From: Cyclobacteriaceae bacterium
GTDB lineage: Bacteria; Bacteroidota; Bacteroidia; Cytophagales; Cyclobacteriaceae
DNA length: 64,000 nt
Direction: 5' to 3'
NCBI GenBank assembly: GCA_019694875.1
Contig: JAIBBC010000001.1
Location: 868,001 to 932,000 of the forward strand
A program made the translations under genes and the position numbers. This document shows, in pieces, positions 51,540 to 59,253 of the stretch. The stretch's first letter is position 1. Each line of letters starts with the position of its first letter. The notes under the pieces were generated by a model. That model did no database searches. It was not told where the DNA came from and saw only the letters and a program-made list of their open reading frames with translations.

Positions 51540-52073
51540 ATGAAAATCTGCGTTTTCTGCGGATCTTCTTCCGGTAATAATTCCGTTTACAGCCGTACGG
51601 CAAAAGAATTAGGCGCACTCATCGCTCAACGAAATCATTCATTGGTTTACGGAGGCGGTAACGTGGGGCTCATGGGCATTGTAGCCGATGCCGTTCTCGA
51701 AAACAAGGGCGAGGTGACGGGAGTAATTCCCCGTTTCCTGATGGATCGTGAAGTAGGTCATTCCGGGCTTACATCGCTTGAAATTGTGAGCAGCATGCAC
51801 GAACGCAAAAAGCGAATGGCCGATTTATCGGATGCGTTTCTTGCAATTCCCGGAGGATGGGGCACACTGGAAGAACTTGGTGAGATTTTAACCTGGAAAC
51901 AATTGGGTTTGGTTTCTCAGCCAGTGGGTGTACTCAATACAAATGGCTTTTTCGATCCGCTGCTTACTCAGATGAAGCACATGGTACAGGAGGGATTTCT
52001 TCGCGAAGAGAATTTTTCTTCCATTAAAACCAGTCAATCACCTTCAGAAATCCTGTCGCTGTTAATACCGTAA
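51540..52073 (+). CDS. LOG-family (TIGR00730) nucleotide phosphoribohydrolase
   Basis: This 177-residue Rossmann-fold protein has CVFCGSSSGNNSVYSRTAKELG at the N-terminus, LVYGGGNVGLMGIVADAVL, and the PGGWGTLEELGEILTWKQLG motif that is the PGGxGTxxE active site with its catalytic glutamate and the preceding MHERKKRM arginine. Family members cleave AMP or cytokinin ribotides to the free base plus ribose 5-phosphate. A role in purine salvage or pyrimidine/purine nucleotide clean-up is likely in bacteria. Confidence 0.93.
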   Translation: MKICVFCGSSSGNNSVYSRTAKELGALIAQRNHSLVYGGGNVGLMGIVADAVLENKGEVTGVIPRFLMDREVGHSGLTSLEIVSSMHERKKRMADLSDAFLAIPGGWGTLEELGEILTWKQLGLVSQPVGVLNTNGFFDPLLTQMKHMVQEGFLREENFSSIKTSQSPSEILSLLIP

Positions 52074-52131
52074 TCGGGGGTATACTTCTTTCCATAAAAT
52101 TTGTTTTACCTTGAAGTAAGACTCTGGTCTT

Positions 52132-53376
52132 ATGCGGTTCCTCCTATCTGTAATCTTAGCGTTTTCTATTTCAGCGTCTTATGGCCAAACCTTAGGATTT
52201 TCGTTACCTCCGGGACAGAAGCGAGCCGATATTCCCATTCAAATTCATAATAACCTTGTTGTTGTATCGGTTACGATCAACGGAACATTGCCATTGAAAT
52301 TTATTGTCGATACCGGAGTTCGCACGGCAATCCTCACGCAAAAAATGTTCTCCGATATCCTGGAGTTAAAGTACACCCGCAAGTATACCATTGCCGGGCC
52401 AGGAGGAAATAAATTGGTAGATGCATTTATCACCAACAACGTATCTATTTCAATGCCGGGACTCAATGGCACGTTAGGTGTTGAGGGTAAGGGGCATACC
52501 TTATTGGTTCTTGAACAGGATCTTCTGGAGTTACGTAATTATCTCGGGGCCGATGTTCACGGAATTTTAGGTTATGAGTTGTTCAGCCGTTTCATTGTCC
52601 GCATCGACTACAGAAGAAAAGTTATGACGTTGTTCGCTCCGGGTAAATTCCATCCGTCAAAAAAGTTCCAAGAGCTGCCGATGCTGATTGAAGATACCAA
52701 GCCATTCATACTCACTCCCATCAGCATAGATCAAAACAACATTTTAACTGCTAAACTTCTTGTCGATACCGGGGCCAGTCACAGTTTACTGCTTGAGCCA
52801 ACATCCGATAAAAGAATTGTTGTACCGCAAAACCGCGTGAGCACCGTTCTTGGACGGGCACTAGGTGGAGTGATAACGGGCAAAACCGGGCGAATACAAT
52901 CTGTTGAGTTCGGCAAGTTCAAATTACCTAACGTGATTACCCATTTTCCTGATTCCAACAGTTACCTGGATACGCTTAAGCATTCGGTTACATTCAGAAA
53001 TGGTTCTATCGGTGGCGAAATACTTAGTCGCTTTACGGTTGTACTTAATTTCCCCCAGGGAAAACTGTATCTTAAAAAGAATGCCGATTTCAAAAAGCCG
53101 TTCTTTTTAAACCTGAGCGGACTGGAGATGAAGGCAAAAGGTGCACGGCTGGATGTGTATGAGGTTATTGATGTGCGGGAGCTTTCACCAGCACAACAGG
53201 CCGGGGTTATGCGCGGAGACCTAATTATCTCTGTGAATGGAATGTCTACGAAGGACATGCGCCTTAACCAGTTAAATGCATTGCTCAACTCCGCTCCCGG
53301 CAAAAGGGTTCGGATAGAGATCGAGCGAAACAAAACACATCAGAAGCTTGAACTTAAGCTGGCGAGCCAAATTTAA
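52132..53376 (+). CDS. Secreted aspartyl protease with two retropepsin-like lobes and a PDZ domain
   Basis: This 414-residue protein has a signal peptide (MRFLLSVILAFSISASYGQ). Two DTG catalytic triads lie in one chain: FIVDTGVRT (D60) and LLVDTGASHS (D212). Together they can form a pepsin-like two-lobed site without dimerising. A PDZ domain follows at about 325-410 (VRELSPAQQAGVMRGDLIISVNGMS). Relatives are annotated as aspartyl protease family or retropepsin-like in Bacteroidota. It should act in the periplasm or at the surface. Substrate and physiological role are unknown. Confidence 0.88.
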   Translation: MRFLLSVILAFSISASYGQTLGFSLPPGQKRADIPIQIHNNLVVVSVTINGTLPLKFIVDTGVRTAILTQKMFSDILELKYTRKYTIAGPGGNKLVDAFITNNVSISMPGLNGTLGVEGKGHTLLVLEQDLLELRNYLGADVHGILGYELFSRFIVRIDYRRKVMTLFAPGKFHPSKKFQELPMLIEDTKPFILTPISIDQNNILTAKLLVDTGASHSLLLEPTSDKRIVVPQNRVSTVLGRALGGVITGKTGRIQSVEFGKFKLPNVITHFPDSNSYLDTLKHSVTFRNGSIGGEILSRFTVVLNFPQGKLYLKKNADFKKPFFLNLSGLEMKAKGARLDVYEVIDVRELSPAQQAGVMRGDLIISVNGMSTKDMRLNQLNALLNSAPGKRVRIEIERNKTHQKLELKLASQI

Positions 53377-53415: not shown

Positions 53416-54528
53416 ATGGATGCCGCAAACAGAGTAATTATTGCCGGTGGTGGCCTCGGGGGGCTAATCGCTGCGATACGACTCAACCGCGCAGGATTTG
53501 CCTGTACGCTTATTGAAAAAAAGCGTTATCCTTTCCATCGCGTTTGCGGAGAGTACATTTCCCATGAAACAACAAGTTTTCTGAAACGCGAGGGGTTGTA
53601 TCCTGAGGCGTTCAATCCACCCCAGATAACAACCCTTCAATTAAGTTCGGTAAGCGGCAAAACGTCCAGCGCGGCACTCGATTTGGGCGGATTCGGTATT
53701 AGCCGGCATACATTCGATCATCATCTCTGCGGGATTGCCGAGAAAGAAGGCGTTAAGGTTTTGAATGATACCGAGATTGAGTCAATCGACTATGGCCATT
53801 CGTTTCAGGTAAAAACGATAAGTCAGTTATTCGAAGCGGATCTTGTTATCGGGGCATTCGGGAAACGGTCGAAGCTTGACATTCAACTCAACAGAAGGTT
53901 CATTAAAGAGCGCTCGCCTTATGTCGGGGTTAAGTATCATGCACGAACCGATCATCCGGACAACCTGATCGCACTTCACAATTTCCGTGGAGGATATTGC
54001 GGTGTAAGCAATGTTGAAGAGGGAAAAACAAATGTGTGTTACCTGACACATCGTGATCACCTGAAAAAAACGGGGGGTATTGAAGCGCTTGAACAAACCG
54101 TTCTGTTTGAAAATCCTTTACTGAAAACCTTATTCACCAACGCAGACTTCCTGTTTGAAAAGCCTGAGGTGATTAACGAAATCTCTTTTCAAACAAAGGA
54201 GCCGGTATTAAATCATGTCTTGATGGTAGGCGATGCTGCAGGGATGATCACACCGCTTTGCGGAAACGGAATGGCAATGGCCATACATTCAGCCAAGATA
54301 CTTACTGATTTGATGATCGAACATAATAATCGTTTACGGGATGATCTCGAAAGAGCGTACTCTGCCGCGTGGCGAAAAGCGTTTTCCAAACGTTTGTGGT
54401 TTGGCAGACAAATTCAACATAACTTGTTTGGAACGGAGGCTGGTTCAAATTTGGCGGTGAGTCTTGCCGTTAATTCACGTTTCATCACCAATACGCTTAT
54501 AAAATTAACGCACGGGAAACCATTCTAA
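53416..54528 (+). CDS. FAD-dependent oxidoreductase of the type III PKS locus
   Basis: This 370-residue flavoprotein is of the geranylgeranyl-reductase/aromatic-hydroxylase type. The dinucleotide fold is VIIAGGGLGGLIAAIRLNRAGF with IEKKRYPFHRVCGEYIS. The second FAD motif is LMVGDAAGMITPLCGNGMAMAIHSAKI, and DLVIGAFGKRSKLD the conserved middle. It may hydroxylate or reduce an aromatic or isoprenoid substrate. It is the first gene of the cluster with UbiA, type III PKS and methyltransferase; by analogy with SrsC of Streptomyces it could oxidise an alkylresorcinol to a quinone, which is inference. Confidence 0.85.
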   Translation: MDAANRVIIAGGGLGGLIAAIRLNRAGFACTLIEKKRYPFHRVCGEYISHETTSFLKREGLYPEAFNPPQITTLQLSSVSGKTSSAALDLGGFGISRHTFDHHLCGIAEKEGVKVLNDTEIESIDYGHSFQVKTISQLFEADLVIGAFGKRSKLDIQLNRRFIKERSPYVGVKYHARTDHPDNLIALHNFRGGYCGVSNVEEGKTNVCYLTHRDHLKKTGGIEALEQTVLFENPLLKTLFTNADFLFEKPEVINEISFQTKEPVLNHVLMVGDAAGMITPLCGNGMAMAIHSAKILTDLMIEHNNRLRDDLERAYSAAWRKAFSKRLWFGRQIQHNLFGTEAGSNLAVSLAVNSRFITNTLIKLTHGKPF

Positions 54529-54531
54529 TGA

Positions 54532-55434
54532 TCACTTATCCGGCAGCAGCACTTGTAACACCTGTGTGTTGTCGAGAAAAAAGTAAATGAAGAAGATATT
54601 CAGACAGGTTGCCGAGATAAAATTCAACAGCATGGTATACCGATGATTTGCGAACGACTCGTCCCGGATCACTTTAATAAACCAGAATAAAAAATATCCA
54701 AGCACCGGTGCCAAGGCGATGAAGAATGCGATCACATACTTCATGTTAAAAAACTCCGTAAAGTAATAGGTGAACAGTGCCGCAGCCAAGGCGAACACCG
54801 TTGCCGTAAAATAGAACGTTCCTTTTATTCCCAGCTTCACGCTGAGTGTTTTATCTCCGCGTTTCATGTCTTCTTCGTGTTGATACACCTGCGTCATCGG
54901 GTAATTAGCCCACAACATCACAGTTGTTAACATCGCAGGAAGCAAAACATGCGGGTGCAGACAGGCTTGAAGCGGAAGATTGTTCACACCCACGTAACAC
55001 ATTAAAAATGTAAATGCACCCTGAAACAAGCCGGCCGCTACCCACCCGGTGACGGGCATTTTCTTTAGGCGGATCATCGGGTGACTGTATGCTTTCGAGA
55101 CAAGTCCGTAAACAAAAAGCATCAGCGCAAACAGGGGGTTGATGAGAAAATACCCCAGCGCCAGCGCGATCAGATCAAAAAGCAGCGATAAATAATACAG
55201 GCCTTTGTCAACTTTTGGCGGGTTTTTAAGGCCTCCAATGCTTTTTTCATCTTTATCGAAATAACTGTTGTATCCGTTACTGGCTGGGTACAGAAATAGA
55301 TGAAGCGTGACGAATACCCATAACAGCCGGGGTTCGCTTAGATTGGGCGAAATGGCTACTGCAAACAGAAAAACAGGCAACAGAAAATATGAGAAGGGTA
55401 TGCGAAGGTGAAGCCAGGAGGAACGTGAAAGCAT
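54532..55434 (-). CDS. UbiA-family membrane protein with altered aspartate motifs
   Basis: The protein is 300 residues from the ATG at 55434 (MLSRSSWLHLRIPFSYFLLP). Upstream ATG 55488 would overlap the opposite start. Eight or nine membrane helices fit the UbiA prenyltransferase fold. The first motif reads SNGYNSYFDKDEKSIGG (N53-G68), where the third aspartate of NDxxDxxxD is K64. The second reads QVYQHEEDMKRGDKTL, where the first aspartate of DxxxD is Q185 and D189 remains. Canonical UbiA needs these to bind magnesium-diphosphate. It might be a divergent prenyltransferase or a non-catalytic relative. It lies on the opposite strand within the PKS locus. Confidence 0.82.
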   Translation of the reverse strand: MLSRSSWLHLRIPFSYFLLPVFLFAVAISPNLSEPRLLWVFVTLHLFLYPASNGYNSYFDKDEKSIGGLKNPPKVDKGLYYLSLLFDLIALALGYFLINPLFALMLFVYGLVSKAYSHPMIRLKKMPVTGWVAAGLFQGAFTFLMCYVGVNNLPLQACLHPHVLLPAMLTTVMLWANYPMTQVYQHEEDMKRGDKTLSVKLGIKGTFYFTATVFALAAALFTYYFTEFFNMKYVIAFFIALAPVLGYFLFWFIKVIRDESFANHRYTMLLNFISATCLNIFFIYFFLDNTQVLQVLLPDK

Positions 55435-55486
55435 GCAGCAACAAAACTGATCTAAATTAAGATATTTTGAGCTATACTTGAACTCC

Positions 55487-56590
55487 ATGAGCTACATTAC
55501 CTCTGTTGGAATAGCCGTTCCGGATAATTGTTTTGATCAGTCGCAAATCGGGAAATTCATGATCAAGGCCATGCAGCTTGATTACGAAAACAGCCGCAAG
55601 CTTCAGGCGATATTCCGGTCGAGCGGTATCGCTCAGCGTTATTCGGTGTTGAAGGACTATGGAAAAGAAAACGACTTCAATTTTTATCCTAATACCTCCG
55701 ACTTTGAACCGTTTCCTTCAACTGAAAAAAGGTTAGCAGAATATCAACAACATGCCATTAAGCTTAGTGTTGCTGCGGTGAATAACTGCGTTGCTAAACT
55801 TTCCGGATTTAATCTTAAAAGTGTAACACATTTAATCGTTGTAAGCTGCACGGGTATGTATGCTCCGGGCCTCGACATTGACCTGGTTCAACAACTTGGA
55901 TTGCGGCACGATGTTCAGCGGCTAAGCATCAACTTCATGGGTTGCTATGCGGCATTTAACGCAATCAAAGCAGGTGATGCTTTCTGCAAAGCAGATGGTG
56001 ATACCACGGTACTGGTAGTATGTGTAGAGTTATGCAGCATTCACTTTCAGAAGCAGGCAAGTGAAGATAATATGCTTGCCAACGCGTTGTTTGCGGATGG
56101 TGCTGCAGCATTGATGATGCAATCCAACGCACGTTCCGGAGCAAACCTCACACCCACTGCATTTCATAATGCACTTTCCTTTACTGCCGAACCACAAATG
56201 GCCTGGCGCGTAGGAAACCTCGGGTTTCAAATGAAACTGACTTCCTATGTTCCTGAGATCATTCAGGGTGGAATCAGAAAACTAACAGAGGAGATGCTGT
56301 TGAAGATTAAAATGAATTTTGCAGACATCAGGCATTTCGCCATACATCCCGGTGGAAAGAAAATTCTTGAGGTTATCGAACAGCAACTTGGCATCTCTCA
56401 TGACGACAACAAACATGCGTACTCGGTCTTAAACCGGTATGGCAATATGTCGTCTGCCACAGTGTTATTTGTGCTGGATCATTTGCTTCATACACTGACT
56501 CCCGAGAACAGTGGAGAGAATGTTTTGAGCTTTGCCTTCGGACCGGGTCTCACGCTTGAAAGTATCTTATTTACGATTCAGTATGCCTGA
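55487..56590 (+). CDS. Type III polyketide synthase (chalcone synthase-like)
   Basis: The enzyme is 367 residues from the ATG at 55487 (MSYITSVGIAVPDNCFDQSQ). A TTG three codons earlier is less likely. The catalytic triad of type III PKS is intact: C153 in SINFMGCYAAFNAIKA, H287 in HFAIHPGGKKIL and N320 in NRYGNMSSATVL. The GFGPG-like loop is FAFGPGLTLE. These enzymes extend an acyl-CoA starter with malonyl-CoA and cyclise to pyrones, resorcinols or phloroglucinols. Starter and product are unknown. It overlaps the methyltransferase gene by 8 bases. Confidence 0.95.
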   Translation: MSYITSVGIAVPDNCFDQSQIGKFMIKAMQLDYENSRKLQAIFRSSGIAQRYSVLKDYGKENDFNFYPNTSDFEPFPSTEKRLAEYQQHAIKLSVAAVNNCVAKLSGFNLKSVTHLIVVSCTGMYAPGLDIDLVQQLGLRHDVQRLSINFMGCYAAFNAIKAGDAFCKADGDTTVLVVCVELCSIHFQKQASEDNMLANALFADGAAALMMQSNARSGANLTPTAFHNALSFTAEPQMAWRVGNLGFQMKLTSYVPEIIQGGIRKLTEEMLLKIKMNFADIRHFAIHPGGKKILEVIEQQLGISHDDNKHAYSVLNRYGNMSSATVLFVLDHLLHTLTPENSGENVLSFAFGPGLTLESILFTIQYA

Positions 56591-57302
56591 TCTCTCAAAA
56601 CGTTCGGAGGCAATTGAAATCATGGACGACCTGAACTGTTCAGGGCCGGTTATTGCGCAAACATTACAGGAACTTGAATTCATTAACAAATGGCTTGGTG
56701 GAAATGCCATTACCTTAAATGGATTAAATAAGGTTCTTGCTACATGCTCAAAGCCGGAGTTGAAAATTGCCGACCTCGGCTGTGGCGGGGGTGACATGTT
56801 GTTGCTGATTAGTCAGCAGCTCAAGAAAAAAAATATCACCGGACAACTAATCGGCATCGATGCTAATCCGAACATCATTGCGTATGCCCGTGAGCACACT
56901 GCGTCCGACAAATCGATCACGTATAAAGCATTAAATATTTTTTCGGAAGAATTTCAACGGGAACGCTTCGACATTGTTTTCGCCACGCTGTTCTTCCATC
57001 ATTTCACACGCGGGCAATTGATCGATCTGTTTACACATCTGAAAAACGTTACATCCTGCGGAATTGTAATAAACGATCTGCATCGGCATTTTCTCGCGTA
57101 CCACTCCATCAAATTGCTGACAAGCCTGTTCTCAAAATCCGATATGGTGAAGAACGATGCGCCTGTTTCGGTGCACCGCGGTTTTTCCCGTGCAGAACTG
57201 AAAGAAATCCTGCATGCTGCCGGCATTACAAACTACACGTTAACGTGGAAGTGGGCTTTTCGGTGGCAGCTCGTTATCCGAACCGAAAATAGTCTGGCAT
57301 AA
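56583..57302 (+). CDS. SAM-dependent methyltransferase of the type III PKS locus
   Basis: The enzyme is 239 residues from the ATG at 56583 (MPDLSKRSEAIEIMDDLNCS), which overlaps the PKS stop by 8 bases. A longer frame upstream is only the PKS gene read out of frame. The SAM motif I is KIADLGCGGGDMLL (62-73), followed by GIDANPNIIAYAREH and FDIVFATLFFHHFTRG. The N-terminal region resembles the methyltransferases paired with type III PKS genes (such as BpsB and SrsB, from memory). It probably methylates the polyketide product. Tight coupling to the PKS supports this. Confidence 0.9.
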   Translation: MPDLSKRSEAIEIMDDLNCSGPVIAQTLQELEFINKWLGGNAITLNGLNKVLATCSKPELKIADLGCGGGDMLLLISQQLKKKNITGQLIGIDANPNIIAYAREHTASDKSITYKALNIFSEEFQRERFDIVFATLFFHHFTRGQLIDLFTHLKNVTSCGIVINDLHRHFLAYHSIKLLTSLFSKSDMVKNDAPVSVHRGFSRAELKEILHAAGITNYTLTWKWAFRWQLVIRTENSLA

Positions 57303-57339: not shown

Positions 57340-57900
57340 ATGAAATCCATTCTTCGAGTTTCTGTTGTGCTGCTGGCATTAACAGCGTTTGGCTGCGCTT
57401 CAGGCGTGTTAGGCAAAAAAGTCCGAGAGCCATTCCAGGGAAATGCATACGAATCTAATAATCGGTTCTGGCGCGGTACCGGAAAGGGATCAAGCTCGCA
57501 AGACAATATCGCGAGAAGCAAAGCCGACATTGATGCAAAAGCACAATTAGCAGGTCAGGTCAACACTACCATGAAACAGGTAGCTGATCAGTACCTCGGC
57601 CAAACCGAAAACGCACAGGCAGCTGATGTGGCTGATAAATTTCAAAGCCTGGTTCGTCAAATCATGAACACCAGCATTTCCGATCTCCGCAAAATGGGCG
57701 AGGAAAAATATTATAACGAGGAAAAGAAAGAGTATACCGTGTTCATTGCGTATGAGATTAAAAAGAATGCGATGTTGCGTTTCATGAAGAAGCAGGCGAA
57801 GGTTGACCAAACCATCAATGAACGCCAGCGCGACCTGATTGAAAAAATTGTCGATGAAGAAATTAAGAAGGCAGACGCAGCTGATGAAGAGGGTAATTAA
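57340..57900 (+). CDS. LPP20-type lipoprotein
   Basis: This 186-residue protein has a lipoprotein signal (MKSILRVSVVLLALTAFGC, cysteine 19). The mature part is helical and polar: SSSQDNIARSKADIDAKAQLAGQVNTTMKQV resembles the LPP20 pattern in which aligned Ala/Lys-rich helices precede a strand core, and EKKEYTVFIAYEIKKNAMLRFM is the conserved second part. The gene has a TAATTTTA near-consensus -7 box 22 bases upstream. A bidirectional terminator follows 23 bases after the stop. The role is unknown; it is probably an outer-membrane lipoprotein. Confidence 0.8.
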   Translation: MKSILRVSVVLLALTAFGCASGVLGKKVREPFQGNAYESNNRFWRGTGKGSSSQDNIARSKADIDAKAQLAGQVNTTMKQVADQYLGQTENAQAADVADKFQSLVRQIMNTSISDLRKMGEEKYYNEEKKEYTVFIAYEIKKNAMLRFMKKQAKVDQTINERQRDLIEKIVDEEIKKADAADEEGN

Positions 57901-57923: not shown

Positions 57924-57951
57924 AAGCCTGAGGAGTTCAGGCTTTTTTTAT
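57924..57951. terminator. Bidirectional intrinsic terminator
   Basis: AAGCCTGA (57924-57931) and TCAGGCTT (57937-57944) form an 8-base stem with a GGAGT loop. T runs follow on the plus strand and, as complements of the upstream A run, on the minus strand. It serves both the lipoprotein gene and the convergent P450 gene, whose stop is inside the hairpin (57937). Confidence 0.92.
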
Positions 57952-59253
57952 TTCGAGCATAACCCGATCCGGCCGCAGGGTCACCAGCGGATTAGGTTTG
58001 GGGTGAATTTCGGTTGGATCAATTTCGAATGAATGAATCATCGTTTGTAAAAAAATTGCCATTTCGGCCATGGCAAAGTTATTGCCGATACAGAGCCTCG
58101 GGCCTCCGCCAAATGGATAGAATGCCTTCGGTTTGCGCTTGTCATCGTTCTCTTTCGCAAATCGCTCCGGAATAAAAGAATCCGGTTCCGGCCAATACCG
58201 GGCATCGCGGTGCAATCCATAGTAAAACAAAATAATCACAATTCCTTTCGGATACGTAAATCCATTGTAAGCGTCATCGGTAAGGGCCATACGATCGCTT
58301 ATCCAGGCGGGCGGATACAAACGCATGCTTTCTTTTATCACAGCCGCCAATGCATCATTCGTTGTTGCCTCGTTTACGGTTAACCCTTGTGTTGCTGCTT
58401 TCAGCTTAGTCATTTCGGTTTTATGATTTGCAAGCAAATACAATGTCCAGGAAAGTGCGTTTGCGGTTGTTTCATGACCGGCAATGAGTACAATTAAGAT
58501 TTCGTCAATTACCTGATCTTCATGCATCGGCTCGCCTGTATCTTCATACCGTGCATCCAACAACATATCCAGCAGGTCATTGAATTTTTGACCGCTTTGT
58601 TTTCGGGTATTGATGATGTCCCGAATAATGACCCGTGCATTTCCCGATCGCTGAAGATTCTTTTCTACCTCTCCTGAAAGTTTAAACCACCAGCTTTTGT
58701 ACGGCTGGCGTAAATCCTTGATTACAAAAGCCTGTACTTCATTGATAAAGTCACTCAGCTGATCACGCGTTTCCTGCGGCACTTTTATGTTGAATAGTGA
58801 GTTGATAACGATTTCAAACGCCAGCTTATGCATGTACGGGTAAACGTCTATTCTGCCGGTGGGTAAGGAGGCGAGAAAGTCATCAACCGTTTTTTTGATA
58901 ATGGCATACAGCGCATGAATTTTATCAAGGTGAAAACCGGGTTGAATGAGCCTTCGCTGTTTCAACCAGTAGTCACCATTTACCGTCAAAAGACCTTTCC
59001 CCAAAAAGCGGCCAAGCTCTTCGGTCTGGATGGGCGACTTATGATAATTTTTGTGGTTCGTTCTTAAAACATAATCGATAAATCCTGGGTCTTGCGTAGC
59101 GATCAAACGCCTGGTGCCGAGATCAACCGTATACGTACCGTCAAATTTCTCCATGCTTTCCTCCATGGTGCCGATCGGGTTTTTCACTTGTTTATAGGTT
59201 CTAACAAGCGACTGGAGAAAATTATATCCGGCAGGCAATGCGTAGTTTTTCAC
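57937..59253 (-). CDS. Cytochrome P450
   Basis: This 438-residue soluble P450 starts at GTG. The I-helix oxygen-activation motif is IAGHETTANALSW, the K-helix ExxR is IKESMRLYPPAW, the ERF segment is PERFAKEN, and the heme-binding loop is AFYPFGGGPRLCIGNNFAMAEMAIF with the axial cysteine. It groups with CYP102/CYP4-like bacterial fatty-acid or terpene oxidases. No ferredoxin or reductase lies next to it. It is convergent with the lipoprotein gene and separated from the type III PKS locus by a terminator, so a shared pathway is possible but not shown. Confidence 0.93.
   Translation of the reverse strand: MKNYALPAGYNFLQSLVRTYKQVKNPIGTMEESMEKFDGTYTVDLGTRRLIATQDPGFIDYVLRTNHKNYHKSPIQTEELGRFLGKGLLTVNGDYWLKQRRLIQPGFHLDKIHALYAIIKKTVDDFLASLPTGRIDVYPYMHKLAFEIVINSLFNIKVPQETRDQLSDFINEVQAFVIKDLRQPYKSWWFKLSGEVEKNLQRSGNARVIIRDIINTRKQSGQKFNDLLDMLLDARYEDTGEPMHEDQVIDEILIVLIAGHETTANALSWTLYLLANHKTEMTKLKAATQGLTVNEATTNDALAAVIKESMRLYPPAWISDRMALTDDAYNGFTYPKGIVIILFYYGLHRDARYWPEPDSFIPERFAKENDDKRKPKAFYPFGGGPRLCIGNNFAMAEMAIFLQTMIHSFEIDPTEIHPKPNPLVTLRPDRVMLEIKKA

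Follow-up and report, generated by a model that had tools for sequence, protein, structure and literature searches.

The window analysed here, a stretch of 64,000 nucleotides from a Cyclobacteriaceae genome of 4.68 Mb, carries at positions 53416-57302 a set of four genes encoding a flavoprotein, a UbiA-fold protein, a type III polyketide synthase (PKS) and a methyltransferase; both the open reading frames and the protein families were confirmed. Surveying genomes of the order Cytophagales, we found that these four genes are largely inherited as a unit, being kept together or lost together even where they are scattered in the genome. Our favoured interpretation, held with somewhat more confidence than doubt, is that they encode the four enzymes of one pathway leading to a tailored phenolic lipid, in which the product of the PKS would be methylated, hydroxylated by the FAD-dependent flavoprotein and prenylated by the UbiA-fold protein.

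Co-occurrence of the four genes in Cytophagales

The co-occurrence was studied in 148 whole genomes, assigned to Cytophagales as judged by named relatives, with match cut-offs of E 1e-30 for the PKS, 1e-20 for the UbiA protein and the flavoprotein and 1e-25 for the methyltransferase; up to 16 UbiA, 13 flavoprotein and 19 methyltransferase candidates were scored per genome, with misses possible. The PKS was found in 107 genomes, the UbiA protein in 108, the flavoprotein in 103 and the methyltransferase in 98. All four were present in 92 genomes and none in 37, the remaining 19 showing partial sets, and this co-occurrence supports the idea of one functional locus put forward in the initial annotation of the window. 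The UbiA gene had been considered there as an addition to a known set; it is instead the gene that accompanies the PKS most faithfully, the two agreeing in 143 of the 148 genomes (105 with both, 38 with neither). The phi coefficient with the PKS was 0.92 for the UbiA protein, 0.87 for the flavoprotein and 0.80 for the methyltransferase, compared with 0.29 for cytochrome P450 and 0.39 for squalene/phytoene synthase, two control families which differ from the PKS in prevalence (46 and 129 of 148). When 21 small genomes, selected by hand from rounded sizes, were removed, these values became 0.85, 0.79 and 0.69 for the three partners and 0.15 and 0.09 for the controls.

Fisher tests on such data treat the genomes as independent although they are related, and absences within a genus constitute better evidence. 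In four genera, species with none of the four genes occur alongside species that have the full set: G144 versus G064 (g3), G025, G083 and G111 versus G056 (g28), G041 versus G070 (g37) and G123 versus G081 (g57), the absence for G083, G111 and G123 being read from their not appearing among the matched genomes. The squalene/phytoene synthase control is missing from G144 too, and this may be a generally reduced genome; the other five genomes with none of the four have it. The distance between the genes was also considered. Among the 92 genomes with the full set, all three partners lie within 10 kb of the PKS in 33, and in 26 no partner is found within 10 kb on the PKS contig (they are more than 10 kb away or on another contig, some contigs being short). 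The set is therefore complete though scattered in these 26 genomes, and linkage alone does not explain the co-occurrence.

Arrangement of the genes in the window and in its relatives

In the window the strands of the four genes are, in order, +, -, + and +. The flavoprotein and UbiA genes are separated by 3 bases (54529-54531), the divergent UbiA and PKS genes by 52 bases between their start codons (55435-55486), a spacer presumed to carry the promoters of both, and the PKS and methyltransferase genes overlap by 8 bases (56583-56590). This spacing is as the initial annotation had described it, and its family names are borne out as well, each of the four proteins scoring above a curated Pfam cut-off.

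The surroundings of the PKS gene, over at most 8 kb in either direction, were compared in 80 named loci. These represent the best of 304 confirmed relatives and are biased to close ones; full flanks were present in 58 of them, and the best named relatives are Cyclobacteriaceae metagenome-assembled genomes with 82-83% PKS identity. The flavoprotein, UbiA and methyltransferase genes are all near the PKS in 43 loci, UbiA and methyltransferase in 21, and flavoprotein and methyltransferase in 9, the rarer sets being flavoprotein with UbiA (2 loci), UbiA only (1) and flavoprotein only (1). A PKS-methyltransferase pair without the other two genes, the pattern that had been expected to speak against a common locus, is seen beside the PKS in 3 of the 80 loci, yet in none of the 148 whole genomes, where the PKS and the methyltransferase are accompanied by both other proteins in 92 cases, by only one of them in 4 and by neither in 0. 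The UbiA gene is divergent from the PKS gene and at most 700 bases away in 67 loci, the methyltransferase gene adjoins it on the same strand in 75, and the window's own arrangement is found in 23. The nine loci without UbiA include Hymenobacter, Pontibacter, Adhaeribacter and Rufibacter and have the flavoprotein, PKS and methyltransferase genes on one strand; the fetched genomes of family f13 (Hymenobacter-like, at a guess), without UbiA at the PKS locus, carry it elsewhere in the genome.

The view that the locus is not one operon holds for the window, with its alternating strands, but not for the loci L172 (family f24, of another order) and L186 (family f19, Cytophagales), in which UbiA, PKS, methyltransferase and flavoprotein genes form a contiguous run on the same strand. 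Nothing else points as strongly to a shared pathway as these four-gene runs. In some named loci an extra gene, for a xylose-isomerase-like TIM barrel, recurs between the flavoprotein and UbiA genes; a search of the window's genome for it gave no match (an empty answer, with no positive control), and it was taken as unrelated to the pathway.

The polyketide synthase, the methyltransferase and the flavoprotein

The PKS (55487-56590, + strand, 367 amino acids) passes both Chal_sti_synt domains, with 94.7 bits for PF00195 and 78.8 bits for PF02797 (cut-off of 27 for each). Its triad Cys153-His287-Asn320, on which the initial reading of a complete enzyme was founded, is invariant in 16 of 16 alignment rows, the window included. 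The best sequence matches in the PDB are Steely1 (2h84, E 8.2e-49) and the mycobacterial pks18 (1ted, E 8.7e-45). From the triad and the domain scores the protein is assigned to the type III PKS, and synthesis of a polyketide from acyl-CoA and malonyl-CoA is predicted. The dialkylresorcinol type of DarB and flexirubin was rejected, the DarB-type ketosynthase score being 21.7 bits for a cut-off of 550.

The methyltransferase (56583-57302, + strand, 239 amino acids), whose gene overlaps the PKS stop, reaches 50 bits for Methyltransf_25 (PF13649; cut-off 27) and presents the SAM-binding Rossmann motif DLGCGGGD of a class I SAM-dependent methyltransferase. Its score for NF004851 (130 bits) is below the cut-off of 243, and family labels obtained below cut-off (DpgA, GG-red-SF and PRK06202) were not used as names.

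The flavoprotein (53416-54528, + strand, 370 amino acids) is an FAD-dependent oxidoreductase with a group A monooxygenase/halogenase-like fold. It scores 50.7 bits for FAD_binding_3 (cut-off 22), and its GxGxxG and GD motifs for FAD, together with the fold, place it among the group A flavin monooxygenases. It is probably the ring hydroxylase of the polyketide.

The UbiA-fold protein and its altered motifs

The UbiA-fold integral membrane protein (54532-55434, - strand, 300 amino acids) reaches 70.8 bits for PF01040 (cut-off 34.2) and its predicted structure is a membrane alpha-helical UbiA fold, which together place it in the superfamily. In structure comparison, its closest folds are UbiA enzymes that bind prenyl diphosphate; no sequence match was found in the PDB at E 1 and no relative on plasmids at E 1e-3. 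The Asp-rich motifs of the family are altered. NSxxDxD replaces NDxxDxxxD in 102 of 102 rows (98 of them distinct over a 180-residue core): Asn56 and Asp60 are kept, the second position is Ser, the last Asp is lost (position 64 being variable) and Asp62 is invariant. The second motif, DxxxD, is replaced by QHxxD: all 101 rows that align here have Gln where the first Asp would stand, a single further row having a gap. Four distant rows (L162-L165), excluded from the count of 102, keep NSYWDKDE and the Gln and have lost the His. A menaquinone enzyme was ruled out for this protein, as the same genome has separate genes for haem O synthase and for MenA (277.4 bits on TIGR00751, cut-off 102.15); unlike the UbiA-fold protein, this MenA has NIRDIDSD at the second motif. 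We consider that the UbiA-fold protein is probably a prenyltransferase acting on the polyketide.

In the stretch 55434-55489 the UbiA frame remains open, up to an ATG at 55488 which overlaps the PKS ATG (CATG). The start at 55434 is the preferred one for two reasons: it coincides with the beginning of the conserved N-terminus, and in several relatives (G056, G075 and G117) the entire open frame, of only 289-291 codons, is too short for the longer form. The alignment rows were trimmed to the Met nearest the proposed start, which makes the agreement of the starts partly a matter of construction.

Relation to known systems

Likened by described enzyme classes, the closest precedent appears to be the agq cluster of Actinoplanes missouriensis rather than srsABC, the four classes being encoded together in the window as in agq. 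The agq cluster is said to hold, besides its PKS and prenyltransferase genes, methyltransferase and monooxygenase genes (agqB and agqC). Its products are alkyl-O-dihydrogeranyl-methoxyhydroquinones. It resembles the present set by its type III PKS, its membrane prenyltransferase and the hydroxylation of its product (PMC10896814, PMC3227686). AgqD, the membrane prenyltransferase, O-prenylates an alkyl-methoxyhydroquinone (PMC3227686), and the alkylresorcinols made by AgqA undergo prenylation and hydroxylation, their function being described as enigmatic (PMC10896814). The agq cluster differs in belonging to another phylum; in the present set the UbiA motifs are altered, and the genes extend across an order, in which they often lie dispersed in the genome.

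Other clusters are less similar. The los cluster of Micromonospora endolithica, responsible for loseolamycins, has in a row UbiA family prenyltransferase, methyltransferase, acyl-CoA dehydrogenase and losA PKS genes; it differs in that the gene adjoining losA is annotated as an acyl-CoA dehydrogenase and in that the reported products are alkylresorcinols (PMC7587189). The cyanobacterial hidABC and the planctomycete operons with methyltransferase, FAD oxidoreductase and PKS genes share these three classes, their PKS being alkylresorcinol synthases (PMC10896814). One hierridin-like cluster, that of Raphidiopsis mediterranea, has in addition a prenyltransferase gene, of a type not stated, and the other clusters of the same clade are described without one (PMC8086630). 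In srsABC of Streptomyces griseus and ftpA of Myxococcus, resorcinols made by the PKS are oxidised to alkylquinones, but the description has no prenyltransferase (PMC10896814). The likeness to srsABC proposed in the initial annotation thus stands for the type of set and not for the closest precedent, since agq pairs its PKS with a membrane prenyltransferase.

For Bacteroidota, type III PKS is listed as a predicted cluster type in Flavobacteriaceae (PMC7440613, PMC10734526), in Reichenbachiella (PMC10752948), in Fulvivirga (PMC12565237) and in Hymenobacter psoromatis, where no similar cluster was reported (PMC11925752). No characterised product of such a pathway from this phylum was found in the open literature, subscription papers being mostly outside this scope, in line with the initial statement that no characterised version was known. 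The presence of the PKS in 107 of the 148 genomes, and of the whole set in 92, may be set against the genome surveys cited, in which the type III PKS of Bacteroidota is listed solely among predicted clusters. The association of these enzyme classes is already known from agq; what appears new within our searches is how widely the set occurs in Cytophagales and in some lineages near them, its survival where the genes are scattered, and the altered site of the UbiA-fold protein.

Proposed pathway and alternatives

In the proposed pathway, the PKS would take a fatty acyl starter, lengthen it with malonyl units and cyclise the chain, probably to an alkylresorcinol. The methyltransferase would add one methyl group, and the flavoprotein would hydroxylate the ring to give a (methyl or methoxy) hydroquinone or quinone. 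In the membrane, the UbiA-fold enzyme would attach an isoprenoid chain taken from the prenyl diphosphates of the cell. The product would most likely be a methylated, hydroxylated and prenylated alkyl phenol or hydroquinone, as from agq, and would constitute a membrane lipid, possibly redox-active. The analysis establishes the families, the predicted UbiA fold, the conserved PKS triad and the tendency to joint inheritance; the starter, the type of ring, the order of the steps, the prenylation and the role are what we infer.

Several points weigh against the scheme. The product is deduced from enzyme classes by analogy. The PKS sequence does not separate a resorcinol from a pyrone product, and the myxobacterial counterparts are assigned to alkylpyrones (PMC12224551). 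The UbiA-fold protein does not have the usual NDxxDxxxD and DxxxD metal sites, so that prenyl transfer is not assured. It is possible, and we would give it a minor share of our confidence, that the PKS, methyltransferase and flavoprotein make a methylated alkylquinone or alkylpyrone as in srs, hid or ftp and that the UbiA-fold protein does something else, for example joining the product to another membrane lipid or using a non-prenyl donor, without the classical two-magnesium prenyl chemistry. Against such a role, the closest folds are those of prenyl diphosphate-binding enzymes, and one Asp of each motif remains together with the further invariant Asp62.

The flavoprotein raises its own difficulties, as the solved structures nearest to it in fold are halogenases and, among NCBIfam models, it scores best with the geranylgeranyl-reductase superfamily (93 bits, below the cut-off). 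The motif WxWxIP is diagnostic of flavin-dependent halogenases; it is absent from the flavoprotein, whose only Trp residues are at 319 and 328, and a halogenase identity, in spite of these structures, was set aside as improbable. That the flavoprotein is a reductase of the prenyl chain, as would be required to form the dihydrogeranyl group seen in the agq product, and not a ring hydroxylase, would agree with this NCBIfam score, with its conserved CGE motif and with the reductase-like 3oz2 at rank 24 of its Foldseek matches; we nevertheless think it unlikely, as the same subfamily is retained in three genomes without this UbiA (G199, G214 and G224), and the CGE motif is included in the loci L170, L171 and L177. 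Because of this retention, the probable substrate of the flavoprotein is the polyketide rather than the prenyl chain.

As for the coherence of the set, partial patterns with the PKS comprise PKS, UbiA and flavoprotein (7 genomes without a methyltransferase match), PKS and UbiA only (4), PKS, UbiA and methyltransferase (2 without a flavoprotein match) and PKS, flavoprotein and methyltransferase (2); therefore some steps are not essential or some partners have diverged. Methyltransferase alone, UbiA alone, UbiA with flavoprotein, and UbiA with flavoprotein and methyltransferase occur in one genome each, the last three (G075, G124 and G134) having UbiA without a PKS match. That the UbiA gene (and the flavoprotein gene) are chance neighbours of the PKS-methyltransferase pair, as the alternating strands and the 59 of 92 full-set genomes without all three partners near the PKS might suggest, is very improbable and was rejected, given the same-strand four-gene runs and a genome-wide co-occurrence which exceeds that of the controls and persists where the genes are scattered.

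The four-enzyme pathway, if correct, has further implications. Since its genes are for the most part retained or missing jointly, a lipid could be tied to much of the order by a single knockout series or a single heterologous operon, and the variant site of the UbiA-fold protein would probe how far the metal-binding site of a prenyltransferase can be altered. Cytophagales and several other Bacteroidota lineages are thought to rely on menaquinone. It would be a bold and, in our opinion, rather improbable extension that they possess, besides menaquinone, a prenylated quinone derived from a polyketide and made with a dedicated membrane transferase of a new catalytic type (Gln and His for metal-binding Asp), the quinone serving as electron carrier or membrane antioxidant.

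Other lineages and a distinct type of PKS

The only PKS-bearing Cytophagales genomes without UbiA, G029 and G059, have weak PKS matches (E 1.2e-42 and 1.1e-40). In the PKS tree (FastTree, midpoint-rooted), the PKS of locus L177, from G029, groups with two PKSs of family f26 (Flavobacteriaceae, at a guess) in a separate clade (support 1.0, branch 1.73). The latter belong to flavoprotein-methyltransferase-PKS triads (L170 and L171), which resemble the window by their flavoprotein and methyltransferase subfamilies but differ by the clade of the PKS, the lack of a UbiA match and the fatty-acid-type genes alongside. FabA-like, ketoacyl-synthase or SDR genes follow the PKS in L170, L171 and L177 (L170:3990-8600, L171:4579-10042), and their position beside the PKS suggests a fatty acyl starter in these loci; in the two f26 triads these fatty-acid-synthase-type genes look like a dedicated starter supply. 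This UbiA gave no match at E 0.001 in G214 and G199, the genomes of the f26 triads, nor in G224 and G243 (family f23).

In a phylum-wide sample of 395 genomes (PKS and UbiA at E 1e-20, with up to 6 UbiA and 5 PKS candidates scored per genome), the PKS family, counting both types, was found in 179 and a UbiA match in 60, none of these 60 being members of f26. Outside Cytophagales, UbiA adjoins the PKS in 11 of the 12 UbiA-positive genomes of families f23, f24, f27 and f32. A distant group in family f43 accounts for 34 of the 60 (E about 1e-32 to 1e-42); its UbiA lies away from the PKS in both genomes fetched, and this flavoprotein matched in 0 of the 19 f43 genomes tested. The distant f43 proteins (L188:4806-5693, L189:4735-5613) have NSYWDKDE and the Gln of the second motif in common with the UbiA-fold protein of the window, and that of L188 adjoins a thioredoxin-like gene.

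Genes flanking the set

A cytochrome P450 gene adjoining the locus (57937-59253) looks like a recent neighbour, because a match was found in only 2 of 100 loci (L056 and L057), a comparison which includes some genomes fetched twice. The gene downstream of the methyltransferase (57340-57900) encodes a putative lipoprotein of 186 amino acids with no Pfam match and has a counterpart in 50 of the 80 named loci. Upstream of the flavoprotein, an aspartyl-protease/PDZ protein (51540-53376) is matched in 44 of them, and the LOG-type gene preceding it in 33.

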